The notes beneath the pieces were generated by a model. It searched no databases. It had not been told where the DNA came from and saw only the letters and a list, made by a program, of their open reading frames with translations. From assembly GCA_022841475.1 (NCBI GenBank), contig JALHRJ010000018.1, forward strand, positions 1 to 64,000: a stretch of 64,000 nt of DNA. The letters run 5' to 3'. The position numbers and the translations under genes were made by a program. This stretch comes from Cyclobacteriaceae bacterium. Its GTDB lineage: Bacteria > Bacteroidota > Bacteroidia > Cytophagales > Cyclobacteriaceae. Shown one piece after another: positions 48,133 to 64,000 of this stretch (position 1 is its first letter; every line of letters starts with the position of its first letter).

Positions 48133-48540
48133 ATGTCACGGAAGAAAGCCAAAGATCAAACCAAGTTATACACCCACCCAGTCCGGACGAGGGTTACCGA
48201 GTCAATCTACAACCGGCTCAACGCATTCGTTGGCAATGGCGATTGCCACTCCATCGGGGAAGTTGCCCGCAGGGTGTTGTCGAAAGAGAAGATTCTTTAT
48301 GTGCTTAGGGACGGCTCGATGGATGCTGCGATGGAGGAGTTGATCGCGATCCGGAAGGAACTCAACGCTATCGGGGTAAACATTAACCAGATCGCCCGTC
48401 ACTTCCACAATGCGTCCGCTCCCGACCAGCGGTTGTTCCACGCGCTTAAAGTGGCTGAGCAATACAACAAGGTTGGTGACCAGGTGGAGTTGCTGCTCAA
48501 CGAGATTTCATTACTGGCTAAAAAATGGTTGCAAAAGTGA
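48133..48540 (+). CDS. MobC-type relaxosome accessory protein
   Basis: 135 residues, basic at the N-terminus. It contains a ribbon-helix-helix-like stretch (VRTRVTESIYNRLNAFVG) and the MobC pattern GEVARRVLSKE with LNAIGVNINQIARHFHN. MobC proteins bind oriT DNA and help the relaxase open the nick region. It overlaps the relaxase gene by 16 bases. Confidence 0.88.
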   Translation: MSRKKAKDQTKLYTHPVRTRVTESIYNRLNAFVGNGDCHSIGEVARRVLSKEKILYVLRDGSMDAAMEELIAIRKELNAIGVNINQIARHFHNASAPDQRLFHALKVAEQYNKVGDQVELLLNEISLLAKKWLQK

Positions 48541-49760
48541 TCAGCGGGAAGAATATACGGGGCCTGCTCAACTATAATGAGAACAAGGTGAGCGAAGGGG
48601 TTGCTCAATGCATTGCCGCCAGTAGGTTTGGTTGCGATGCGCATGGCCTTACCTTCTCCGACAAACTTAACCGCTTCCGCAAGGTCACAGACTTAAATCA
48701 GAAGGTACGCACGAATGCTATTCATATCTCCCTGAACTTTGATGTTAACGAAAAGCTGACCAACGAACAGTTACACACCATTGCCTCCGACTACATGACT
48801 CGAATCGGATTTGGTGAACAACCTTATCTCGTTTACCGGCATACCGATGCGGCCCATCCCCATGTACACATCATTACAACCAACGTGCAGAGTGATGGCA
48901 AGCGAATCGACATTCACAACATCGGGAGAAACCAGTCGGAAAAAGCCAGAAAGGAAATAGAGGTTGCGTATGGATTAGTCCGCGCAGAAAGCAGGAAGAA
49001 AAACAGTGACCTGCAATCGATCAACATTGAGAAAGCCGTGTACGGAAAATCAGAGACCAGGCGCAGTATATCCAACATCGTGCGTATGGTCACGCGGTCA
49101 TACAAATACACGTCATTGCCTGAGTTGAATGCGATACTAAAGCAATTCAATGTAGTCGCGGATCGTGGAGCAGAGGGCACGCAAATGCACAACAAGAAAG
49201 GACTGCTATACAGTCTGCTTGATGAAAAAGGCAAAAAGATTGGTGTACCTATCAAGGCCAGTTCAATTTATGGCAAACCAATTCTGGTCAATCTTGAGAA
49301 ACAATTCAAGCTGAATGAAGCCCTGCGAAAACCTTTTCGTGAAGGCTTGAAATCCACTATCGATCAAGTCCTGAAAAAGCCGCTGTCAAAAGATGCGTTC
49401 GCTAAGACGCTTTCCAATAAAGGCGTGTTCGTGCTGTTTCGCGAAAATGACGAAGGCCGAATTTATGGGATCACGTTCGTGGACAACAAGAATAAGGTGG
49501 TCTTCAATGGCAGTGACCTTGGCAAAGCGTACGGTGCAAAGGCAATTCTTGAACAGTTAACTCAGGCTCCCGACACTACCTCGTCTGGTATTCAGCCACA
49601 GTCTCCTCATGCAGAAGTACAACATACTGGTGAAGTTGACCTTCATGTAAATGAACTTCTGAAAGACCTTGTGACAGCACAAGCATACGACTTCACATCA
49701 CCGGAAGCAGCGATGAAAAAACGCAGGAAGAAAAGAAAGAGAAAAGGTCGTTCACTTTAA
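48525..49760 (+). CDS. Relaxase / mobilization nuclease (MobB/MobA type)
   Basis: 411 residues. The relaxase domain (about 1-150) shows NENKVSEGVA, HISLNF, LVYRHTDAAHPHVHIITTNV (the HxH metal motif) and a catalytic Tyr candidate within the first 25 residues (LLNYNEN). The C-terminal 250 residues are basic and helical with a very basic tail. It cuts one strand at oriT and carries it into the recipient. It overlaps mobC by 16 bases and is followed by the coupling ATPase after 10 bases. Confidence 0.93.
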   Translation: MVAKVISGKNIRGLLNYNENKVSEGVAQCIAASRFGCDAHGLTFSDKLNRFRKVTDLNQKVRTNAIHISLNFDVNEKLTNEQLHTIASDYMTRIGFGEQPYLVYRHTDAAHPHVHIITTNVQSDGKRIDIHNIGRNQSEKARKEIEVAYGLVRAESRKKNSDLQSINIEKAVYGKSETRRSISNIVRMVTRSYKYTSLPELNAILKQFNVVADRGAEGTQMHNKKGLLYSLLDEKGKKIGVPIKASSIYGKPILVNLEKQFKLNEALRKPFREGLKSTIDQVLKKPLSKDAFAKTLSNKGVFVLFRENDEGRIYGITFVDNKNKVVFNGSDLGKAYGAKAILEQLTQAPDTTSSGIQPQSPHAEVQHTGEVDLHVNELLKDLVTAQAYDFTSPEAAMKKRRKKRKRKGRSL

Positions 49761-49770
49761 ATGATTTCTT

Positions 49771-51711
49771 ATGGCAAGTACAGGCGAGAACGAACAAGCT
49801 TTACGAAAGATCATCGACTTCATCAGGCTCTTAAGTGTAGTGGTGGTGTTATTCCATCTCTATTTCTTTTGCTACCGGGTCTTTGAAGGCTGGGGACTCA
49901 CATCGGAGTTTGTTGACCGGATTATTTATGGACTCAAGAATACCGGAATATTCAAAAGTGTTTATCACGCCAAGCTGATCTCACTCGGGTTACTTGCCGT
50001 TTCGTTGATCGGGGCTAAAGGAAAGAAAGATGAACAGATCAATCTAAGGACTTCTGTCCTTTACATCATCATCGGACTCATAGTCTTCTTTCTCTGCCAC
50101 TTCATACTCCTGGCTCCATTTGAAAGCATCGTCTTGGTGGGATTATACATCGGCCTTACGTCCTTAGGTTACCTGCTTACGCTTACCGGTGGCACGTGGT
50201 TGTCTCGCCTGATCAAAGTCAATTTCAGGAAGGACATTTTCAACCGCATGAATGAATCCTTTCCGCAGGAGGAACGATTGCTTGAAAACGAATACTCCAT
50301 TAACCTGCCAACCGCCTATAACCTTAGAGGTAAAAGACGAACAAGTTGGATCAATGTGATCAACCCTTTCAGGTCGCTGCTGGTGATCGGAACACCCGGT
50401 GCCGGTAAGTCATATTTCGTTGTCAGGCATATTATCACCCAGCACATTCGTAAAGCCTTCACTATGTTCATCTATGATTTCAAATACGATGACCTGTCGA
50501 GGATTGCTTATAACACCTTGTTGAAAAACGCCCGGAAGTACCCTGTTCTGCCCAGGTTTTACGTGATCAATTTTGAAGACCTCTCGCGTTCTCACCGGTG
50601 CAATCCTCTTGACCCTGCCACGATGGAAGACATTACCGATGCAACGGAGTCATCACGCACAATTATGCTGGGACTTAACCGCGATTGGATCAAAAAGCAG
50701 GGCGACTTTTTTGTTGAATCACCTATCAACTTTGTGACTGCTATCATCTGGTTTTTGAGAAAGCATGAAGACGGTAAATACTGCACGCTCCCGCACGTAA
50801 TCGAGCTGATGCAGCTCGATTATCCTAAACTGTTCAAACTCCTTAGAACTGAACCGGAAATTGAGGTGCTGATTAACCCGTTTGAATCGGCCTTCCGAAA
50901 TGAGGCGATGGAGCAGTTAGAGGGCCAGATTGCGAGCGCCAAGATCGGCATGGCGCGGTTGTCATCACCACAGCTTTATTATGTGCTCTCAGGTAACGAC
51001 TTCACCCTTGATATAAACAATTCAAAAGAACCCAAGATTGTCTGTGTGGGTAACAATCCGCAGAAGCAGCAGATATACGGGGCGGTGCTTTCGCTCTACA
51101 TTTCACGCGTGATCAAACTGGTCAACAAAAAAAACCAGCAGAAGTGCAGCCTGATCTTCGATGAGTTCCCTACAATATATTTCAACGGCATTGATAGTCT
51201 GATAGCGACTGCTCGCGCCAACAAGGTTGCTACATGCCTGGCAGTACAAGACTATAGTCAGTTGAAGAAAGACTATGGCCGGGATCAAGCTGAAGTGATC
51301 ATGAATATCGTGGGTAACGTGATCAGCGGACAGGTCGTGGGTGAAACCGCCAAACTTCTATCAGAGCGTTTCGGAAAGATTGTTCAGGAGCGGGAGAGCA
51401 TTTCTATCAATGCTTCGGATACTTCGATCAGCCGGTCCACCCAACTTGATTCGGCCATACCGCCATCAAAGATTGCCACACTATCATCCGGTGAATTTGT
51501 GGGCACGGTAGCCGATGATCCTGATCAAAAGATCGACCTGAAAGTATTTCATGCTGAGATACTAAATGACCATGCGGCCATCCGCAAGGAAGAAGAAAAC
51601 TACCGGTTCGTCCCCGCCATACGGAAGATCACACCCTACGAAATACAAGAGAACTACTTCCGTATCAAGAAGGAGATTGAACAGATCGTAGAAGACAAAC
51701 TCAAGAAATGA
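49771..51711 (+). CDS. VirD4/TraG-family coupling ATPase
   Basis: 646 residues. Three to four N-terminal membrane helices (about 15-145) are followed by the ATPase domain with Walker A GTPGAGKSY (about 211-219) and Walker B SLIFDEFPTIYF (about 465). It carries the relaxase-DNA complex to the type IV secretion channel. The mob gene order HTH-mobC-relaxase-coupling protein-RteC matches Bacteroidota transfer elements. Its end overlaps the RteC gene by 4 bases. Confidence 0.93.
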   Translation: MASTGENEQALRKIIDFIRLLSVVVVLFHLYFFCYRVFEGWGLTSEFVDRIIYGLKNTGIFKSVYHAKLISLGLLAVSLIGAKGKKDEQINLRTSVLYIIIGLIVFFLCHFILLAPFESIVLVGLYIGLTSLGYLLTLTGGTWLSRLIKVNFRKDIFNRMNESFPQEERLLENEYSINLPTAYNLRGKRRTSWINVINPFRSLLVIGTPGAGKSYFVVRHIITQHIRKAFTMFIYDFKYDDLSRIAYNTLLKNARKYPVLPRFYVINFEDLSRSHRCNPLDPATMEDITDATESSRTIMLGLNRDWIKKQGDFFVESPINFVTAIIWFLRKHEDGKYCTLPHVIELMQLDYPKLFKLLRTEPEIEVLINPFESAFRNEAMEQLEGQIASAKIGMARLSSPQLYYVLSGNDFTLDINNSKEPKIVCVGNNPQKQQIYGAVLSLYISRVIKLVNKKNQQKCSLIFDEFPTIYFNGIDSLIATARANKVATCLAVQDYSQLKKDYGRDQAEVIMNIVGNVISGQVVGETAKLLSERFGKIVQERESISINASDTSISRSTQLDSAIPPSKIATLSSGEFVGTVADDPDQKIDLKVFHAEILNDHAAIRKEEENYRFVPAIRKITPYEIQENYFRIKKEIEQIVEDKLKK

Positions 51712-52532
51712 AAACATACAAGGCTATGGATATACTGACGTTTTCAAAGCAACTGGAAGGCCGCATGAAGGAACGGCTGAATGAGTTCAGTGCAGACCAA
51801 GACGAGATTTTGAAAGCCGGCCATGTGCTGACTTTTATCCGCGAGATCATCGCTGAATTGAAGCAATTCTGCTACAGCTACAAGTTCACAGATGAATCGG
51901 AAGAGATCAAATTTTTCAAGGAGATAAAACCGGTCTTCCTGAGTCAGTTCTTTTTCTATAAAAAAGTATTTGCACTCAGGCTGTTTGACTCATTCAAGGA
52001 TGGGAAGACGAGGCAGGCGAACTACTACAAAATCCTTCAGCAACTTGAGCGTTTTGTTCAGAAGAACCTTGAGTTCTACGAATATTGTATGACCAACACT
52101 ACCTATCTCGACAAGCACTATTTCACCCGCAACAGACAGAATCATAAATCGATTGACAGGGACGAAAAGTTTTCAACAGGTTATGATGCGAAGCTGGCTA
52201 AAATTCTCGCGAATGAGCTGTTGAAAAAGCACATTCTTGAATTGCTAAAGAAGTCACAGGCTGATCGTTCTACCGATACATCCATAACCCTGACCTGGAC
52301 GGGTTCGAAAACTGACTTGATCGAATTAATTTATGCACTCCACAGTGCAGACGTTTTCAACAACGGAACAGCCAACATCAAAGCGATCGCCTCTGCATTT
52401 GAAGAGGTGTTCAATATTAGCCTGGGCGATTATTACCGGACCTTTCAGGATATGCGTATTAGAAAACGGAGTCAGACCCCTTTTCTTGACACGCTTAAAG
52501 AGAGGTTTATAAGCAGGTTATACACAGAATGA
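51708..52532 (+). CDS. RteC family protein
   Basis: 274 residues. The C-terminal part is a clear RteC signature: LTWTGSKTDLIELIYALHSADVFNNGTANIKAIASAFEEVFN, then LGDYYRTFQDMRIRK and TPFLDTLKERFISRL. In CTnDOT-like elements RteC activates the excision operon. It overlaps the coupling-protein stop by 4 bases (ATGA) and is itself overlapped the same way by a tiny frame of 31 codons. No two-component partners (RteA/RteB) are visible. Confidence 0.92.
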   Translation: MKTYKAMDILTFSKQLEGRMKERLNEFSADQDEILKAGHVLTFIREIIAELKQFCYSYKFTDESEEIKFFKEIKPVFLSQFFFYKKVFALRLFDSFKDGKTRQANYYKILQQLERFVQKNLEFYEYCMTNTTYLDKHYFTRNRQNHKSIDRDEKFSTGYDAKLAKILANELLKKHILELLKKSQADRSTDTSITLTWTGSKTDLIELIYALHSADVFNNGTANIKAIASAFEEVFNISLGDYYRTFQDMRIRKRSQTPFLDTLKERFISRLYTE

Positions 52533-54225: not shown

Positions 54226-54480
54226 ATGAACAGCTCAAACGAAATATCCAATCTCGATTTTCCGGTAAGCCACGCTATCCGCGCAGCCCTGAAAGATTTA
54301 TCTGAAGAACACCTGAAATTCATCCTCGGCACGATGACGGAGGATGAGTTCATCAGCCATAGGGTTGACATCTATCTCGAAGTGCTGGAGACTGCTATGC
54401 ACAATGGCTACGATGAAGCCGGTGCAAAAGAAATTGCCTTGAAGGAATGCCTGGCCGGAATCAGCGAAGCCGATGAATAA
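54226..54480 (+). CDS. DUF1896-like small protein
   Basis: 84 residues, acidic and helical. FISHRVDIYLEVLETAMHNGYDEAGAKEIALKECLAGI resembles the core of DUF1896 proteins, which are found in Bacteroidota conjugative elements. It overlaps the large methylase-helicase gene by 8 bases, so the two are translationally coupled. The function is unknown. Confidence 0.6.
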   Translation: MNSSNEISNLDFPVSHAIRAALKDLSEEHLKFILGTMTEDEFISHRVDIYLEVLETAMHNGYDEAGAKEIALKECLAGISEADE

Positions 54481-57400
54481 GTTTTCAAAGCGGCAGGCGT
54501 ATGAAAACGGGCTGGTACTGTTGGAAGAATTGCTCACACCAGGTCAATCCAATGGCAGGCTTACAGAGATGCGGTTCAATGGCTTTGGAGCACTGAAGGA
54601 GTTGCTGTTGCCATTGGACAACCGCTCAGCCTGGAGATCCGAAGATTTACGGTATCAGTCGGAGGTCGAAAAATTCCACGAACTTTTGAGAAATCGTTTT
54701 GGTAACCGCTATGATGAAGCGGTGTCTTCCCTGAAGAACAGTATACTCACATCCTTTTATACTCCGGCATTTATAACAGAGCCTATAGTTGCAGCCATCC
54801 AACGCAACAGCGGGTCCATTAACTCTATCCTAGAACCAGCCGCAGGGACTGGAAATTTTGTGAACGCGCTGAAGAAGTATTTTCCACCAAGTTCCATAAC
54901 AGCAATTGAAAAAGACCTCCTGGCTTCGGAGGCATTGAAAAAGCTTCACCCGGACATTGAAGTCGTTCACTCAGGATATGAGAATTTTAAGAACAGGAAC
55001 TTTGATTTTGTGGTCAGTAACATTCCATTCGGAAGTACCAGCGTGTATGATGATCAGATCTTCCGTGAAGCGGTGCCGGTGAAGATCAAAGCCACTACGC
55101 GCATTCACAACTATTACTTTGTTAAGTCGCTCGATAATTTAAAGAATGGCGGAATACTCGCCTTCGTTTCTACCAATGGCCTGATGGATAGTCCGGGTAA
55201 CCGCGAGATCCGGGAGCATCTGATGAAGAATGCCGATCTGATCTCAGCAGTCCGTTTGCCTAATGACACCTTTGCAGAATCAGGAACATTTCCGATCACA
55301 GACATTATCCTGCTTCGAAGGAACGCGCAAAAGCGAAATACATCGCCTTCGGAAAAACTTTTCATTGAGTCGGAGAAAATCAATGTGCCCGATGACAAGG
55401 GATTATCAGTTGAAGTCAACATCAATGCCTACTACAAATCCAACAGCGAGAATGCACTCGGGACATTCACAACTGGCGGGCAGTACCAGCACGATTCGCT
55501 CAATATGCTTCCGAGGGAAGGGTTTGATGAAGATGATTTCCGGAGGTCCATTGCATTACTTATTGACGAGGGGTTCCGGCAATTAGAGCACAAGGTCATT
55601 GCAAAGAAAGTTGAAGATGAAGATGAAGCGGCTTCTTCTGTTGGCATTGTAATTCAGCGTAATCACCCGGACTACGACATCCTGAAAAGAGGAAATCTTG
55701 TTGTTCAAAATAACAAGGTCGGAATTATCGACTATTCGAGCACAGAAAAAATCTTTACACCTGAACCGGTCATTAAAGATATAGATCGTGCTTTCCATCT
55801 TACTGGGCTGCGCAGCAGTCTCGTGCGGCTCGTTCAATCCGAACTGGATGGTGATGAAGCAAAGATGAGGGCATATCGCGCAGAGTTGAACAATCAGTAT
55901 GACCTGTTCACCTTCCGTTACGGAAACCTGAATCTTCCTTCGAATAAAAAGTTAATCCTCTTCGATGCAGAAGGATTTAAAGTGCTCTCCCTTGAACGTA
56001 TTGAAAATAACCGCTATGTCAAGGCCGATATTTTCACAAAGCAGGTCAACAACGTTCAGAAAACATTTTCAAAACCGGAATTATTGAAAGATGCTGTCCT
56101 GCTTTCGCTGAATGCACATAATGGCATTCATGTTGAGTTCATTTCTTCCCTGATGCAGAAGAGCAGGGACGAGATCATCCGCGAAGGCTTCGACCAGGAG
56201 CTTTTATTCCGGGACATCGAAAGCCAAACGTCCCGGTATGTTACCAAGGATGAATTTCTCAGTGGCAATATCGTGCAGAAGATCGAAGCCTGGGAAAAGA
56301 TAAAGAACTCAGAACGAAGGAGCGCATTCCCAGAGCTGACTGACAAGGATATTGACACGTACCTGGAACGGTTAAAAGAAGTACGGCCCGTATTCCTGAA
56401 GCGCGAGCTTATCGACATCAATATAGGTGAACGCTGGATACCCATAGACATCTATGAAAGCTTTGCTGAGCACTTGTTCAGAGAGAAAACGCAACTCAAA
56501 TATTTGGATTCAGCAGATCAATATCTTGTGAATGTATCTCGATACAGCAACGAAGAGAGCATCACGTACGCAGCCACCGTCCATAATGGCAGGATCTCAG
56601 GCAGCAAGATCATGGAGTATGCCATGGCCGACACCCAGCCTTACTTGCAGATCAGAATTGACGGAACCAATCCTCCACAATACAAACCCGACCAGGATGG
56701 AATGAAGAACGTGGAAATGAAGATCAAAGAGGTGAAAGATGAGTTTGAGAATTTTCTGAGTACACGACAGGACATTGCTGGCCGAATTGAAGAACTGTAC
56801 AACCAGAATATCAATAATGCAGTAAGGCGTAACTATGACGGCTCACACCTCCAACTCGCAGGACTGAAACACTTCGCTCTACGCGCGCATCAGAAAGATG
56901 CCATCTGGATGCTGCTTCAGCAGGATGGCGGCATTGTTGACCACAAGGTCGGTGCCGGGAAAACATTGGTCATGGTCGCGGCCGCAATGGAAATGCGCAG
57001 GCTCGGCATTGCACAAAAGCCGATGATCATTTGCATGAAGGCTAATGTAGCCGATGTAGCTAAAGACTTCCTGAAAGCCTATCCTTCAGCCAAAGTCCTT
57101 GCGCCAGACCCTCAGAAGGATTTTACAAAGCAGAAACGGCAGCGGCTCTTCGCCAGCATTGCATCTAACGACTGGGATGCTGTGATCATAACCCACGATA
57201 TGTTCCAGGCAATCCCCCAGTCACCGCGTGTGAAAAAAGAAATACTGGAGCAGGAACTGAAAAATCTAGAAGATGATCTGAAAGCAGTATCGGAAGATCG
57301 TTCATTGTCGAAACGAGTATTGAAAGGACTTGAAGGTCGAAAGCAAAATTTGAAAGTTAGGCTTGAGATCGCCAATGCAGCGATCAGGCGTGATGAGAAT

Positions 57401-59425
57401 ATACTGGACTTCGAGAAGATGGGTTTCGACCACATTTTTGTTGATGAGAGCCAGGCGTTCAAAAATCTTCATTTTACTACTCGCCATCAGCAAGTTGCAG
57501 GGTTAGGCGATCCTACCGGTAGCCAACGGGCACTTAATCTTGAACTTGCGATCCGTACCATTCAGGAGAAAAAAGCCGGAGACAAAGGCGCAACGTTCTT
57601 GTCAGGTACTACGATCAGCAACAGTCTTGTTGAATTGTATCTACTCTTCAAATATTTACGACCGGATAAACTGAATGAACTGCACATCAACTCCTTCGAT
57701 GCTTGGGCGAAGATGTATGCCAGAAAAAGCTCCACTTATGAATTCACCGTGACGAACGAATTAAAGTTGAAGGAGCGTTACCGGGAATTCATTAAAGTTC
57801 CGGAGTTGGCGCGGTTTTATGCAGAAATCACACACGTCATTACTGATGGTAATCTGAAGATCGAAAAGCCACGTGTTGAAAATATCGTGGTTAATATTGA
57901 TCCCACTGAAGACCAGCAAGAGTACACACAAAAGCTTATCAATTTTACTAAAACAAAAAATCCCACCTACGTTGACCTTGTATTTAGTGAAAATGAAAAG
58001 AATGCGTTCATGCTCATTGCAACCAACCTGGCCCGCAAGATGAGCATTGACATGCGCCTGATCGATCCGCTGAAATATTCATTTGAACCGGATGGCAAAC
58101 TGGCAAAGATGTGCAAAACCGTGGCCGCTGAATACAAGGACAGCGAGCGTTATCGAGGGACACAACTCATCTTCAGCGACATCGGCACTCCGGATGGCAG
58201 TGGTTTTAACCTGTATGCAGAGATCAAGCGTGTATTGGCAGAACAACACAATCTCCGGCCGGAGGATATTCAGTTCATTCACGACCACGACTCCAAAACA
58301 AAAAGGGAAAAGCTGTTCCAGGATGTCAATAATGGCAACGTGCGGGTGCTGATCGGGAGCACAAAGAAATTGGGTACGGGCGTCAACGTGCAGGAACGAG
58401 TAATCGCCATGCACCATCTCGACATACCCTGGCGGCCGAGTGATTTTGAGCAGCGCATAGGCCGTGGCGGAAGACAGGGGAACCGGATGGCAAAGGACTT
58501 CCGGGAGAATACTGTGCGGAATTATGTGTATGCCGTAAACCGCACACTGGATGCCTACCAGTTCAACATCCTGTCCAACAAACAGAAATTTATCAGCCAG
58601 ATCAAGAACAACTCCATTGACCAGCGCAAGATCGATGAGGGCGCACTCGACCAGGAAGGAGGAATGAACTTCGGGGAATACGTAGCATTACTCAGTGGCA
58701 ACACTGACCTTTTAGAGAAAGTAAAGCTGGAAAAGAAACTATACGACCTCGAACGCAGCTACCGGGTTTTCCTGAAGCGAAAATCAGAAGCATCGTTCTA
58801 CATTGATATGAACACACGCGACCTGAAACTGAAAGAATCTGCGTTGATAAAATTGGAATCCGACTGGAAACCGATTCATTCCATTGATTTAGAGAAGCCA
58901 CCGTTGGTCATTGCGGGCAAGTCATTTGACGATAAGAAGGAAGCCGGTGAACAATTGCATGTTACTATTGAGCACCTAAAACAGAAAGGCGTAGCTACCG
59001 AAACCGAAATAGCCCGGCTGTTGGACTTCAGACTTTTTTACAACCCCATTCAATCAAAAGTCTATGTCTGCGGTCCGTCCGGGATGATCTACAATTATGC
59101 TGATGGAAAGCTCAATGAGAATCCTTCCCTTGCAGGCCGTTACATGACAGACTCCATCAAACGGATTCCTAAAGTGATCGACAATACCAAAGAATCCATC
59201 CAAATCTTTCAAAAAAAGATTAATACCTACAAGCACGAACTAACGCTCGACTTCAAGGAGAAATCACTCATCCATGATTTGAAACACCAAATTGACCAAC
59301 TTACTACGAAGTTGGAGAAAGCATTTTCGGCAAAAGAAGAATTGCAACTCAATGTTGCTGAAGAACCGGCATCGGAATTCGAAGTTCCCGGAAGACGACA
59401 CAAACGAAAAATGAGAATACAGTAA
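54473..59425 (+). CDS. DarB-like N6-adenine methylase / SNF2-type helicase fusion
   Basis: 1650 residues. The methyltransferase part (about 70-300) has motif I LEPAAGTGNFV and motif IV VSNIPFG, the (D/N)PPF-type catalytic site in NIPF form. The helicase part (about 790-1420) has Walker A HKVGAGKT, DEAH-box variant FVDESQAFKN, and the C-terminal motifs STKKLGTGVNVQ and EQRIGRGGRQGN. A coiled-coil tail follows. Similar giant methylase-helicases occur in conjugative elements and phage P1 (DarB), where they shield incoming DNA from host restriction. It lies directly after the mob genes, which fits an anti-restriction job. Confidence 0.88.
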   Translation: MNKFSKRQAYENGLVLLEELLTPGQSNGRLTEMRFNGFGALKELLLPLDNRSAWRSEDLRYQSEVEKFHELLRNRFGNRYDEAVSSLKNSILTSFYTPAFITEPIVAAIQRNSGSINSILEPAAGTGNFVNALKKYFPPSSITAIEKDLLASEALKKLHPDIEVVHSGYENFKNRNFDFVVSNIPFGSTSVYDDQIFREAVPVKIKATTRIHNYYFVKSLDNLKNGGILAFVSTNGLMDSPGNREIREHLMKNADLISAVRLPNDTFAESGTFPITDIILLRRNAQKRNTSPSEKLFIESEKINVPDDKGLSVEVNINAYYKSNSENALGTFTTGGQYQHDSLNMLPREGFDEDDFRRSIALLIDEGFRQLEHKVIAKKVEDEDEAASSVGIVIQRNHPDYDILKRGNLVVQNNKVGIIDYSSTEKIFTPEPVIKDIDRAFHLTGLRSSLVRLVQSELDGDEAKMRAYRAELNNQYDLFTFRYGNLNLPSNKKLILFDAEGFKVLSLERIENNRYVKADIFTKQVNNVQKTFSKPELLKDAVLLSLNAHNGIHVEFISSLMQKSRDEIIREGFDQELLFRDIESQTSRYVTKDEFLSGNIVQKIEAWEKIKNSERRSAFPELTDKDIDTYLERLKEVRPVFLKRELIDINIGERWIPIDIYESFAEHLFREKTQLKYLDSADQYLVNVSRYSNEESITYAATVHNGRISGSKIMEYAMADTQPYLQIRIDGTNPPQYKPDQDGMKNVEMKIKEVKDEFENFLSTRQDIAGRIEELYNQNINNAVRRNYDGSHLQLAGLKHFALRAHQKDAIWMLLQQDGGIVDHKVGAGKTLVMVAAAMEMRRLGIAQKPMIICMKANVADVAKDFLKAYPSAKVLAPDPQKDFTKQKRQRLFASIASNDWDAVIITHDMFQAIPQSPRVKKEILEQELKNLEDDLKAVSEDRSLSKRVLKGLEGRKQNLKVRLEIANAAIRRDENILDFEKMGFDHIFVDESQAFKNLHFTTRHQQVAGLGDPTGSQRALNLELAIRTIQEKKAGDKGATFLSGTTISNSLVELYLLFKYLRPDKLNELHINSFDAWAKMYARKSSTYEFTVTNELKLKERYREFIKVPELARFYAEITHVITDGNLKIEKPRVENIVVNIDPTEDQQEYTQKLINFTKTKNPTYVDLVFSENEKNAFMLIATNLARKMSIDMRLIDPLKYSFEPDGKLAKMCKTVAAEYKDSERYRGTQLIFSDIGTPDGSGFNLYAEIKRVLAEQHNLRPEDIQFIHDHDSKTKREKLFQDVNNGNVRVLIGSTKKLGTGVNVQERVIAMHHLDIPWRPSDFEQRIGRGGRQGNRMAKDFRENTVRNYVYAVNRTLDAYQFNILSNKQKFISQIKNNSIDQRKIDEGALDQEGGMNFGEYVALLSGNTDLLEKVKLEKKLYDLERSYRVFLKRKSEASFYIDMNTRDLKLKESALIKLESDWKPIHSIDLEKPPLVIAGKSFDDKKEAGEQLHVTIEHLKQKGVATETEIARLLDFRLFYNPIQSKVYVCGPSGMIYNYADGKLNENPSLAGRYMTDSIKRIPKVIDNTKESIQIFQKKINTYKHELTLDFKEKSLIHDLKHQIDQLTTKLEKAFSAKEELQLNVAEEPASEFEVPGRRHKRKMRIQ

Positions 59426-59445: not shown

Positions 59446-59937
59446 ATGTACACGGCCACAGCTATAGCAAATTTCTTTATCGAAAAAGGGAAACTGGAAG
59501 GCAAACCGGTTGACCAAATGAAAGTTCAAAAATTGGTTTACTTCGCGCATGGTTGGTTCCTGGGGATAACCGGGAAGCCACTACTCAATGAACCTATAGA
59601 AGCCTGGCGTTTCGGCCCGGTTATTCCCTCTCTTTACCACAGCCTGAAATATTCTGGTAATCTCCCAATCACAAAATCCATTGAGGTATCTCAATTTGAC
59701 AATTCAACAATAGCGGATGATTCTAACACGGAGTTACAAGCATACCTGAATCGTATCTGGAATTTGTATTCACCATTCACAGGAATTCAGCTTTCCAACA
59801 TGACACACGAGGAAGGAACCCCGTGGGCTAAAATCGCAAAGGAATTCGATCACCGGATACCCGCCAATATGGATATCGATGATCAATTGATCAAAGAATA
59901 TTTTTTAGATCAGAGAAGCAAAACCTCAGAGCCATGA
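59446..59937 (+). CDS. Panacea-domain (DUF4065/SocA-like) protein, probable antitoxin
   Basis: 163 residues. The Panacea signature is visible: IANFFIEKGK, MKVQKLVYFAHGWFLGITGKPLLNEPIEAWRFGPVIPSLYHSLK. Panacea proteins neutralise many unrelated toxins encoded next to them (PanAT systems) and can also act as protease adaptors (SocA). Its stop overlaps the next start by 4 bases (ATGA). The methylase-helicase ends 20 bases upstream, so read-through expression is possible. Confidence 0.9.
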   Translation: MYTATAIANFFIEKGKLEGKPVDQMKVQKLVYFAHGWFLGITGKPLLNEPIEAWRFGPVIPSLYHSLKYSGNLPITKSIEVSQFDNSTIADDSNTELQAYLNRIWNLYSPFTGIQLSNMTHEEGTPWAKIAKEFDHRIPANMDIDDQLIKEYFLDQRSKTSEP

Positions 59938-60747: not shown

Positions 60748-61767
60748 ATGCAAAAGCCTCAACATAATATGGTCCTTCTTTATTCTTCAGACTACTATCC
60801 AGTTTATAAAAAGGACATCTTTGCCGTCTCATCCTTGCCGGAAGGATACTGCTATCATTTCAGGTATCAGGAAATATATGTTTCGCAAAAAATTAAGGAA
60901 GGCTTGAATCTGGAACATAGTATGGCCGTTATCATTTTTGTCCACGGCAATACAAAAACCAACCCAAATCCTAATCTCTCCTACGTTCCTATACGACTAG
61001 CACGAATCGTTAAGGTTCATCGGGATACTCAGACCGATCTGTACCACGTTTACTTTACGCTCGATTCTTTTATCGAAATGATTGACGATGTTAAGGCATT
61101 TGATGAAACACCACCGAATATTTTCTTTGGAAATCAAGTCATTCAGCCAAAATACAGGCGAATCTTATGGCGAGATGTTATCAAGAAATTAGACCTGTAC
61201 AGTAACTCTTTCTTCTTCCATATTAAAATACTGAAGAACCTGAAAGAAATTCGTCCCCGTTATGATTCCGATACCTATGAGTCTTCCTTTGAAGTGACTG
61301 AGGGTAAAAATTATTCTCTTCGAATTTCTATCTCAGATAATAATCCTAACAAAGATGAAAATGAAATTGTAACGAAAGTTGAAGGTACAGATATCAAATC
61401 CAATATTGGTGATAGCATTACGTCAGGCCTCAGTTTGGACGATAGAAGTTTCCGGCTATCCGGACTTATTCTTGGCGATCTCAGTTCACGAGTTAACCAG
61501 ATCAAGATTTCCACAAAGGCGAAAGAAGCAGCTAAAGCGAACGAAGACTATAGCGTTCGATTGCTATTCGATGTGAAAAAAGACCCGGAGCGTCAGTTTG
61601 ATTACTGGTGGCTATCAGCCTTTGTCCTTCTTGGTGGTGGATTAATAACGATAGACCTGACCAAGATAGGTTTGTCTGATGGAGTAACCGTTATCGCTAA
61701 ACTTGTCGGATTGGCAATAGGATCTGTTGCAGCGGCTAAATTATTTTATCTCTTCAACAAAAAGTGA
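60748..61767 (+). CDS. Unknown protein with C-terminal membrane hairpin
   Basis: 339 residues. The soluble N-terminal 280 residues are beta-rich (VIIFVHGNTKTNPNP, VPIRLARIVKVHRD, YSLRISISDNN). Two membrane helices follow at about 285-303 and 314-335 (WWLSAFVLLGGGLITI, VGLAIGSVAAAKLFYLF). The layout, a large sensor-like part followed by a membrane hairpin, resembles membrane-effector proteins of defence systems, but no family is recognised. It overlaps the convergent YunG-like gene by 27 bases. Confidence 0.65.
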   Translation: MQKPQHNMVLLYSSDYYPVYKKDIFAVSSLPEGYCYHFRYQEIYVSQKIKEGLNLEHSMAVIIFVHGNTKTNPNPNLSYVPIRLARIVKVHRDTQTDLYHVYFTLDSFIEMIDDVKAFDETPPNIFFGNQVIQPKYRRILWRDVIKKLDLYSNSFFFHIKILKNLKEIRPRYDSDTYESSFEVTEGKNYSLRISISDNNPNKDENEIVTKVEGTDIKSNIGDSITSGLSLDDRSFRLSGLILGDLSSRVNQIKISTKAKEAAKANEDYSVRLLFDVKKDPERQFDYWWLSAFVLLGGGLITIDLTKIGLSDGVTVIAKLVGLAIGSVAAAKLFYLFNKK

Positions 61768-62139
61768 CAAGTTCTTTTCAACCTCATGCTTTAACATATA
61801 GTAGCGTTGAGGTGTTAATGCGCGTGCCGCAGATTCTGAACTAAGAATATATTCGCGCGTAGTCTCGCCCTGGGGTTTGATGGTAATGTTCTTTCCAAAT
61901 TGATCTTTGGTCAGATCGATAACAGTTCCGTCTTCCAGGACATTCCAATAGTGATGGTAATCAGTGTTATAGACAATCTTTCCACCGTATAAATCGTTTA
62001 CCACCAGACTAGTGACGGCACACTGACCAAACGAAGGATTTTTTGTGCTCCATTGTGCCTTTGTTCGAGGGTAAGACGTCTCCCGGCTCCAACTCTTCAA
62101 AAATGCCTCCCGTAAGGATTTCTTATCTACACTTTCCAT
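61741..62139 (-). CDS. YunG-like protein
   Basis: 132 residues from the methionine at 62139 (MESVDKKSLREAFLKSW). The longer frame from 62202 adds 21 residues without likeness. WSRETSYP, NPSFGQCAVTSLVVNDLYGGKIV and HYWNVLEDGTVIDLTKDQF match the YunG family. Its Cys-His-Asp-like placement suggests a papain/transglutaminase-like fold. No function is established. It is convergent with the membrane-hairpin protein. Confidence 0.7.
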   Translation of the reverse strand: MESVDKKSLREAFLKSWSRETSYPRTKAQWSTKNPSFGQCAVTSLVVNDLYGGKIVYNTDYHHYWNVLEDGTVIDLTKDQFGKNITIKPQGETTREYILSSESAARALTPQRYYMLKHEVEKNLSLFVEEIK

Positions 62140-62306
62140 AAGTTTCAACCTTGCTTTCAAGCAAAACCCCTTATTTTCTACTAAATTACGAAGAAAAAGC
62201 ACAAATAGTTCAGTTTTACGTGAGGATTGTTTCTTGCTTAAGCAGGAGTTGATAATACCATCGGCCGCTGGATGCTTGTGCTGTTTTTTGAGTTTATACG
62301 ATAACT

Positions 62307-62657
62307 ATGCTTGACGAAACCAAAAAGAGCCAAATCAGGGATTTCTTGATAGGACTGGCGAAGAAAAAGTCTACTACCGGGTATGTGAAACTGAATGAGA
62401 AGGTAAAACTGGGATTGAACTTCAGCGAGGAAGCCCAGATGAACGAACTCTATGATGTCTTGGATGGCATATCCGCCCAATCTTACAAGGATAATCAGGT
62501 TTTCCTGGGCATTGTCATCGTGAACAAGATGCGAAACCGGCCAAGCCCCAGGTTTTATAGAGGCATCGAGAAGATCATTGGGTCAAAAATTGACGACACG
62601 GACGACTTCTTTGAAATGGAAAGAGAGAGGCTTTATGACCAGTACGGTCCGAAATGA
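62307..62657 (+). CDS. Hypothetical protein
   Basis: 116 residues, charged, with a helical N-terminal half (SQIRDFLIGLAKKKSTTGYVKLNEKVKLGL). The C-terminal half contains VFLGIVIVNKMRNRPSPRFYRG. No family is recognised. It lies 226 bases before the structured leader and sigma gene on the same strand. Its place in that unit is uncertain. Confidence 0.65.
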   Translation: MLDETKKSQIRDFLIGLAKKKSTTGYVKLNEKVKLGLNFSEEAQMNELYDVLDGISAQSYKDNQVFLGIVIVNKMRNRPSPRFYRGIEKIIGSKIDDTDDFFEMERERLYDQYGPK

Positions 62658-62740
62658 GGCAAAAAAAACGGTTTTGAAACAATTTTTGAAAAAAGTCGCT
62701 GATTGAGGAAAGATTTTTTCGTTTATTACGTATCTAACAG

Positions 62741-62880
62741 TAAGGACGTTGAAAAATCATGTCCTTAAGAAAATTTGAAAACCCAAGGCGGGTTTATCCC
62801 AGGCTGGCCCATAGGGCTGGCGCGAACAGGTAAACGTGTCAGGATGCTCTCCTTGGAATTGTTAAACAATAACCAAGGAG
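62741..62880 (+). promoter_or_regulatory. Structured leader with ribosome-binding site inside a hairpin
   Basis: Four hairpins follow each other: TAAGGAC/GTCCTTA (62741-62767), AAACCC/GGGTTT (62779-62795), GCCC/GGGC (62807-62817) and CTCCTTGG/CCAAGGAG (62849-62880). The last has an inner ATTGT/ACAAT stem. Its right arm holds the ribosome-binding site AAGGAG, 3 bases before the ATG at 62884. The site is fully paired in this fold, so translation of the sigma gene probably needs a trigger that opens it. Confidence 0.6.
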
Positions 62881-62883
62881 CGT

Positions 62884-63495
62884 ATGCACCAGTCTACATC
62901 TGGCCCGGTGGGCCCAAACACCATACCAGGCAATCTGCCTTTCACTTTTGATAGCCTTCTCAAAGAGTTCAAACCAGCCATCGTAAGTCTCACCCGAAAG
63001 TACCCGCAGAAGTACGAGGACGACTTTTATCAGGAAGGATCTTTAGCGTTGCTCGATGCGATGCAAAAGTTCATCATCCTGCCACCCATGCAGGAGTTCA
63101 GACCCTATGCCATGCGGGCCATCAAGTACCGCATGATTGATTTCTACCGGAAGAATGTCAAGAAGTCATCTGCCCACGAGGTAGAGTTGTATGTCCAGAC
63201 CATCGATACGGATTACGATGATAATTCGGACTACATCTCCAATTTCACCGCTGAACCTGAATTCTCAACGACAACGGACTTTGATCTTGACTATAAGATC
63301 ATCTTCTCTGAATCGGTTATGGAAGCCAATGACTTTCTTCCGAAGGAGATCAAGGTCTTCGACCTGCATATCAATAAGGAGTTCACAGTTACAGAGATCG
63401 CAGGCGAACTGCAAATCTCCGTTGGACAAGCCTCAAAACTCCTAGCGCGAACAAAACAAAAGGCGAAAATACTCTGGACTATACACAACAGTTAA
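62884..63495 (+). CDS. Sigma-70-type RNA polymerase sigma factor of a putative defence operon
   Basis: 203 residues. Region 2-like FKPAIVSLTRKYPQKYEDDFYQEGSLALLDAMQKF (about 31-65) is followed by PYAMRAIKYRMIDFYRKN. Region 4-like FDLHINKEFTVTEIAGELQISVGQASKLLARTKQKA lies at about 156-192. The longer region 2 differs from the ECF factors in the window. It is followed after 24 bases by a GHKL ATPase gene and preceded by a hairpin that hides its ribosome-binding site. It probably directs expression of the genes downstream. Confidence 0.85.
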   Translation: MHQSTSGPVGPNTIPGNLPFTFDSLLKEFKPAIVSLTRKYPQKYEDDFYQEGSLALLDAMQKFIILPPMQEFRPYAMRAIKYRMIDFYRKNVKKSSAHEVELYVQTIDTDYDDNSDYISNFTAEPEFSTTTDFDLDYKIIFSESVMEANDFLPKEIKVFDLHINKEFTVTEIAGELQISVGQASKLLARTKQKAKILWTIHNS

Positions 63496-63519
63496 ATCAA
63501 TAACTTAAATAAAAGCATT

Positions 63520-64000
63520 ATGGTAACAACTAAATCAAAATCTCTAGAAAGACAGGATACCTTTACCCAATCGATAGCCGGTCAGGACTTCGATTTCGGA
63601 CTGGTAATGACACAGGCCTTTCTAAAAGGTATCCGAGACATCGGATACAAAAGCACCGCTACCGCGTTGTTTGAAAATTTTGACAACTCTATCCAGGCAG
63701 AAGCCGGCAACATCCACCTTGTATTTGATTTTGACAAGGGCAAGGCTGTGAAAGCTAACCCAAGCCGGATCGCCATCATCGATGATGGTCACGGGATGAG
63801 CAAGGAAATGATTCGCATCGCAGTTCTGTGGGGCGGTTCTGATCGTCTTGGTGACAGAGAAGGAATGGGAAAATACGGGTACGGCCTTCCATCATCTTGC
63901 GTGAGTATAGGTCAACAGTTCACGGTCATTTCAAAACGTGAAGACATGTCCGACTGGCACTCCGTTAAAATCGATATTGAAGCAATCGGTAAGCGTGACT
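63520..64000 (+). CDS. GHKL ATPase, MORC/MutL/Hsp90-like (N-terminal part, cut by window edge)
   Basis: 160 codons from the ATG at 63520 stay open to the window edge. The Bergerat ATP-binding motifs are clear: ALFENFDNSIQAEA (N box, about 50-63), IIDDGHGM (G1, about 88-95) and GMGKYGYGLPSS (G2, about 116-127). The spacing is closer to bacterial MORC-like and MutL-like ATPases of restriction and defence loci than to a histidine kinase. It follows the sigma gene after 24 bases. In such loci Z1-type helicase, AIPR or Vsr/PD-(D/E)xK nuclease genes often come next; these would lie beyond the window. Confidence 0.88.
   Translation, partial: MVTTKSKSLERQDTFTQSIAGQDFDFGLVMTQAFLKGIRDIGYKSTATALFENFDNSIQAEAGNIHLVFDFDKGKAVKANPSRIAIIDDGHGMSKEMIRIAVLWGGSDRLGDREGMGKYGYGLPSSCVSIGQQFTVISKREDMSDWHSVKIDIEAIGKRD

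Follow-up and report, generated by a model that had tools for sequence, protein, structure and literature searches.

A six-gene operon that begins near the end of the analysed window (the whole stretch of 64,000 nucleotides, i.e., positions 1-64000 of contig C18) is probably an anti-invader operon carried as cargo by a Bacteroidetes-type ICE, and would join a putatively sigma-controlled module of MORC-like ATPases and DruA to SPARTA as a probable killing arm. As C18 is 84,748 bases long and extends past the window end, the sequence 3′ of 64000 could be read. In the open reading frames the six genes lie on a single strand, the forward one. Their products are, in order, a sigma-70-family factor (62884..63495; 203 aa), a MORC-like ATPase here called GHKL1 (63520..65373 in C18, of which the window holds the 5′ part to 64000; 617 aa) and, from genes 3′ of the window end, a second such ATPase, GHKL2 (C18 65427-66917; 496 aa), DruA (C18 66917-68935; 672 aa), TIR-APAZ (C18 68963-70369; 468 aa) and a short Argonaute (C18 about 70356-71855; about 499 aa). 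The gaps between the genes are 24, 53, -1, 27 and -14 nt, the last on the assumption that the Argonaute start is the second of two close ATGs, and joint transcription of the six is likely on this layout. In a sequence scan promoter-like and terminator-like counts for the operon were at chance and no sigma-gene promoter was found; the strongest terminator-like hairpin falls between GHKL1 and GHKL2. The first-pass annotation, made from the letters of the window, had seen a sigma factor gene followed by a GHKL ATPase gene, and it was right about both, as each product passes its family cut-off.

How might such an operon act? It would be controlled by a sigma factor of its own, the translation start of which can fold into a hairpin. 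Judging from homologues, GHKL1 and GHKL2 with DruA would be a module for DNA recognition or DNA remodelling, and the short Argonaute would be loaded with guide RNA and, once it meets target DNA, have the TIR domain destroy NAD. The loss of NAD, as shown for homologues, would kill or stall the infected cell. SPARTA here occupies a locus without DruD-DruE, which many related loci have.

The SPARTA pair, DruA and a second copy of the cassette

The last two genes put a short Argonaute in an operon with TIR-APAZ, which is the SPARTA arrangement. With PADLOC, TIR-APAZ is an Argonaute-associated TIR (5.7e-129) and the Argonaute a class I pAgo (5.6e-189), and SPARTA structures (PDB 8ifk, 8qlo, 8fex) are matched over nearly full length by both (5.7e-59 and 3.2e-139, respectively). 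The gene order of the pair is that of L145 and L146. The TIR catalytic glutamate is kept, as E79 aligns with position 77 of 8ifk_A, the chain to which the E77 numbering of PMC10474274 is assumed to apply. That paper uses E77A as its catalytic control mutant and assigns metal binding to the C-terminal Ile507; the present Argonaute also ends in Ile. The paper also describes SPARTA homologues as RNA-guided, sensing target DNA and hydrolysing NAD, and by analogy the present pair may be expected to hydrolyse NAD in dependence on guide RNA and target ssDNA.

DruA, whose domain is DUF4338 (by Pfam and PADLOC names; called GNAT-like in PMC10853773), matches PADLOC DruA1 at 6.8e-173 across residues 7-667, and so is of the long kind found in Druantia type I. 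Is the locus then a Druantia? Relatives of this DruA commonly adjoin DruD and DruE, and Wu et al. (PMC13192584) give DruE as the only protein common to all known Druantia subtypes (Bell et al., PMC12458937, also deals with Druantia). The source genome, scored as 94.4% complete and 4.85% contaminated, has 0 matches to PADLOC DruE1 at E 1e-5. The 337 ORFs of the window, of the remainder of C18 and of contig C30 gave no match at E 0.01 to DruD, DruE and their neighbour gene from L046, nor to the genes 3′ of DruA in the type-I-like plasmid loci L127/L128, which from their order were taken as DruB-D. Since neither DruE nor those follower genes are matched, the locus is not Druantia by the shared-DruE rule (PMC13192584). 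L127/L128 also differ from the present locus in being without GHKL genes.

A second copy of the cassette, with all six genes open, is on C30. Outside GHKL1 the two copies are 79-97% identical at the nucleotide level in 250-nt windows; identity is 51% in window 61501-61750 and, from the cassette end onwards, 74% in the window with the Argonaute stop, 61 and 50% in the next two and mostly 65-87% in tra. A 116-aa ORF (62307..62657, + strand; no Pfam match at E 0.05), with copies 90.3% identical in nucleotides, is at the upstream edge of the block common to both elements. Amino acid identities are 93.1% for sigma, 69.9% for GHKL1, 94.8% for GHKL2, 93.2% for DruA, 92.1% for TIR-APAZ and 96.6% for Argonaute, with 89.5% for TraG, and dN/dS, computable for every cassette gene but GHKL1, is 0.03-0.12 in these five. 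The closeness of the two cassettes points to a single shared origin. Because it is 70% identical where the others are 92-97%, GHKL1 looks like a swapped allele in an otherwise more recently shared cassette, and, if so, it is perhaps the part that meets the target.

Do the two halves of the operon have anything to do with each other? The strong rival to the reading preferred here, though a somewhat unlikely one, is that two independent systems, sigma-MORC-DruA and a stand-alone SPARTA, share one slot side by side under separate control and with no joint action. In its favour, SPARTA was seen next to the module in this genome alone. Ahead of the present pair the operon has the genes of sigma, both MORC-like ATPases and DruA, whereas the three closest Argonaute relatives examined (51, 45 and 44% identity, among the best places in 13 other genomes and the own one) have no GHKL, DruA or sigma match within the 13-17 kb read. 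Among 96 DruA loci (described below; their genome relatives are the best 80 of 151) an Argonaute match is within the flanks of the two own copies only, i.e., in 0 of the 94 others, and another short Argonaute lies near the slot in 4 of 20 related element stretches. Against separateness, the gap from DruA to TIR-APAZ is 27 nt, and the six genes have stayed together with open frames in both elements, with flanks that diverged further. These last features favour a single anti-invader operon with a SPARTA arm. A bolder version of it, which we hold to be rather doubtful, is that sigma, the two MORC-like ATPases and DruA are an undescribed sigma-controlled defence module with swappable effectors (DruD-DruE elsewhere, SPARTA here), in which MORC-DruA would recognise or open invader DNA and feed the Argonaute. 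On the preferred reading, the six-gene operon would show swapping and joint control of bacterial defence parts. A partnership of MORC or other GHKL proteins with Argonaute is known from eukaryotic silencing in plants and worms, and if the MORC-like ATPases and Argonaute do act jointly there would be a simple bacterial system for it.

The sigma factor and relatives of the module

The product of the first gene matches TIGR02937 at 62.7 bits against a cut-off of 42.9, which places it in the sigma-70 family, and Pfam Sigma70_r2 at 25.9 bits against 24; its region 4 has a weak Pfam match, 16.4 against a cut-off of 25.7. Does it belong to the module, or is it a chance neighbour? The 96 DruA loci counted are the two own ones, 10 from plasmids, 80 from genomes (the best 80 of 151 relatives) and four from a viral collection. 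The 10 come from 14 plasmid records, L127 and L128 being left out and two others not included; the remaining viral loci repeat these contigs or match weakly or in part, and DruA loci L270-L272, without GHKL or sigma match, are outside the 96. DruA has one GHKL neighbour in 73 of these loci, two in 11 and none in 12, some of the 12 being cut by contig ends; at least 3 kb 5′ of DruA is present for 63 of the 73. A sigma-like gene is near DruA in nine of the 11 two-GHKL loci (the own copies and two Roseobacter plasmids each counting twice), in 0 of the 73 single-GHKL loci and in 0 of the 12 GHKL-free ones, a contrast that ignores descent, as many single-GHKL loci are from related actinobacteria. 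The two-GHKL loci with no sigma match are L118 and L120 of the viral-contig collection. DruE matches, in the same set with its best 80 of 151, accompany 57 of the 73 single-GHKL loci and three of the 11 with two. In Druantia-like loci with a long DruA, a MORC-like GHKL gene seems to be a component not noted before. As an aside, the GHKL gene of the 73 single-GHKL loci (among L030, L038-L117, L119 and L225; best 80 of 151) is GHKL2 in 66 and GHKL1 in seven.

The order sigma-GHKL1-GHKL2-DruA is that of the own locus and of three metagenome bins, L040 (Verrucomicrobia), L041 (Fulvivirga) and L109 (a betaproteobacterium). The sigma of L040 is over cut-off for both Pfam r2 and r4, that of L041 is over cut-off for TIGR02937 (60.9 bits), and that of L109 is under it (28.4 bits) and over cut-off for Pfam r4_2 (31.9 bits). 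Beside the module, profile sigA (11 of the 30 own-genome sigma loci) finds both own copies, L040, L041 and L109; profile sigB was built from the sigma-like genes of the own locus, L041, L109, L042, L044, L028 and L029. The sigmas of L044, L028 and L042 have NCBIfam matches below cut-off (3e-7, 3.9e-5 and 2.5e-4) and that of L029 was assigned by its 76% identity to L028; in these two Roseobacter plasmids, L028 and L029, the sigma-like gene is convergent to DruA. When compared with 25 sigma sequences, the operon sigma finds its own second copy first, then L041 (2e-7) and L040 (5e-7), and next other sigma genes at 0.001. Due to the co-occurrence with two GHKL genes, the recurring order and the nearest sigmas being those of L041 and L040, membership of the module is a likelier account of the sigma factor than chance adjacency. 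A recurrent sigma factor inside a defence module would be an unusual form of control, which becomes testable through the gene order shared by assemblies labelled Bacteroidota, Verrucomicrobia and Betaproteobacteria. In the Fulvivirga locus a KAP-type NTPase gene, weakly QatA-like, is 3′ of DruA (L041:12016-14025) and is a possible alternative effector.

The GHKL fold is also that of the anti-sigma kinases SpoIIAB and RsbW. GHKL1 could by this token be an anti-sigma switch that sequesters the sigma factor and releases it when ATP or DNA is bound, and the sigma-like genes do track the extra GHKL gene (GHKL1 or GHKL3) and not the single GHKL. However, GHKL1 matches HATPase_c_3 (64.4 bits, cut-off 25), a five-row profile of it has MORC2 as its best match in a PDB sequence search (9.6e-8), and its listed matches include no anti-sigma family, all of which leaves the switch improbable.

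The leader of the sigma gene (62658..62883, + strand) appears structured in its 3′ half by copy identity and folding. Between the C18 and C30 copies identity is 90% in the 250-nt window 62501-62750 and 97% in 62751-63000. Positions 62780-62900 fold at -46.5 kcal/mol (z -3.86), which 0 of 200 shuffles equal, 62770-62850 folded alone has z -1.05, and Rfam gave no match in 62500-63000 at E 1. A perfect 8-bp inverted repeat, CTCCTTGG/CCAAGGAG (62849..62880, + strand), ends 3 nt 5′ of the sigma ATG and has in its 3′ arm the ribosome-site-like AAGGAG; its pattern has this sole match in the window, with 0.00 expected. The repeat region 62835-62900 has z -3.92, with one of 200 shuffles as good, and an equally long repeat arises in 4 of 200 shuffles of C18 and 0 of 200 of C30. 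At the same place and with different sequence there are perfect repeats of 9 bp in L041 and 11 bp in L040 (0 of 200 shuffles each), and of only 4 bp before the sigma-like genes of L109, L042, L044, L028 and L029; this comparison across loci is post hoc, having been prompted by the leader folds (z -3.60 in C30, -1.28 in L041, -2.21 in L040 and +1.84 in L109). As a control, a repeat of at least 8 bp is at 19 of 987 ORF starts, which were those of the longest ORF and many of them therefore wrong, and three of the 19 are the two own ones and L041. A repeat with conserved place and changed sequence fits a translation-gating RNA hairpin or a palindromic operator, and may serve as a lead.

A variable slot in a conjugative element

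The mobilisation-gene region of the host conjugative element (48133..52532, + strand) was assigned by likeness to C30, with Blast matches at 48348-49541 and 49694-52477. The mobilisation genes of C30 match NCBIfam MobC at 1117 bits (cut-off 900) and Bacteroid_MobB at 297 bits, under the cut-off of 400. The 3′ side of the cassette has homologues of TraG, TraJ, TraK and TraM of the Bacteroidetes-type conjugative transposon, all over NCBIfam cut-offs. In L003, L004, L006 and L007 there are no tRNA genes, and the ends of the element were therefore not found; P0001 has no match in the plasmid collection at E 0.01. Also in the window are a gene for a 1650-aa methylase-helicase protein (54473-59425), with matches in several related elements, a SocA/Panacea-like gene (59446-59937) and a YunG-family gene on the minus strand (61741-62202).

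TraG matches at 1e-100 occur in 20 of 96 genomes, the own included, at 28 places of which two are own; of the remaining 26, 20 in 16 genomes form the comparison set, several of its stretches being short or cut by contig ends. In these 20 stretches nothing matches sigma, GHKL1, GHKL2 or DruA at E 1e-3, so the four genes are cargo and not backbone. The genes 5′ of tra vary among the 20, and four of them, L200, L201, L202 and L210 (L201 and L202 alike), have the other short Argonautes near the same slot, with REase-APAZ-type partners in the three scanned, L200, L201 and L210. The cassette is thus cargo in a variable slot that takes other Argonaute systems.

Such a position raises the issue of whether the sigma factor serves conjugation, driving a tra operon 3′ of the cargo with the defence genes merely in between. 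A same-strand gene does follow 125 nt past the Argonaute stop, and then TraE, TraF and TraG, and in L209 and L211 an unrelated sigma gene is shortly 5′ of tra, with fragments in L210 and L212. But L196, whose TraG is 98% identical, has no match to the operon sigma, its sole general sigma-profile match being weak (0.0047) and on the opposite strand, and the operon sigma is nearest to the same-module sigmas of L040 and L041, so that a conjugation role is very improbable. General sigma-profile matches at E 1e-13 or better are in five of the 20 stretches (L207, L209, L210, L211 and L212, two of them fragments), and none of the five aligns with the operon sigma beyond 14 residues at E 1. The coordinates of the two unrelated genes are L209:5811-6368 and L211:5797-6354.

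The two ATPases

The GHKL motifs that had been read by eye in the window are confirmed in GHKL1, with ENFDN at residue 52, DDGHGM at 88 and GMGKYGYG at 115, and three of the four motifs of GHKL ATP binding in the strict MORC sense (Iyer 2008) are present in each ATPase. The strict S5 motif of MORC from the same source, GhXhhpXXRhl, is missing from all four own proteins, where R-[QE]-I stands instead; it is in 0 of 71 GHKL2 rows and three of 15 GHKL1 rows, one of the three looking like chance, and a relaxed pattern is in 62 of 71 and 10 of 15. The best PDB matches of the two ATPases are MORC2 and MORC3, with MORC2 best for GHKL2 at 6.1e-8. That they are ordinary Hsp90, histidine-kinase or MutL proteins of a housekeeping locus, for which GHKL2 offers matches below cut-off to the models of MutL (40.4 bits against 180), histidine kinases and HtpG, as well as matches to MutL chains in the PDB at E 0.0025 and weaker, is refuted by those best matches and by neighbours such as DruA and SPARTA, and the annotated ATPase has kept its place outside Hsp90 and the kinases.

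Among PADLOC systems both ATPases match MzaB of the MZA system best, at 56.6 and 84.0 bits against an NCBIfam cut-off of 850, well short of membership, and no other Mza name is among the listed PADLOC matches of the six proteins. In Iyer et al. 2008 (PMC2292703) the MORCs of prokaryotes belong to restriction loci, usually alongside helicases. The present locus resembles those MORC/paraMORC loci in being a mobile defence locus whose GHKL ATPase finds its best match of solved structure in MORC. It differs in that its six genes include no restriction enzyme, methylase or helicase match, and in having sigma and Argonaute, words absent from the main text of that paper. The earlier proposal that the sigma and ATPase genes start a defence operon is partly supported, as the genes downstream are those of DruA and SPARTA and none of the six matches the restriction-type company. 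Further related papers are PMC8565338, PMC8011034 and PMC12137116. Among the matches listed from open-licence literature no paper was found that joins DruA/DUF4338 with GHKL, or short Argonaute with GHKL, and for the MORC-DruA pair, widespread and often with DruD and DruE, the literature searched gave no description. In a tree of 95 GHKL rows (quick method, SH-aLRT) the 15 rows of GHKL1 group with support 99, the 71 of GHKL2 with 97 and a third group of four rows with 100.
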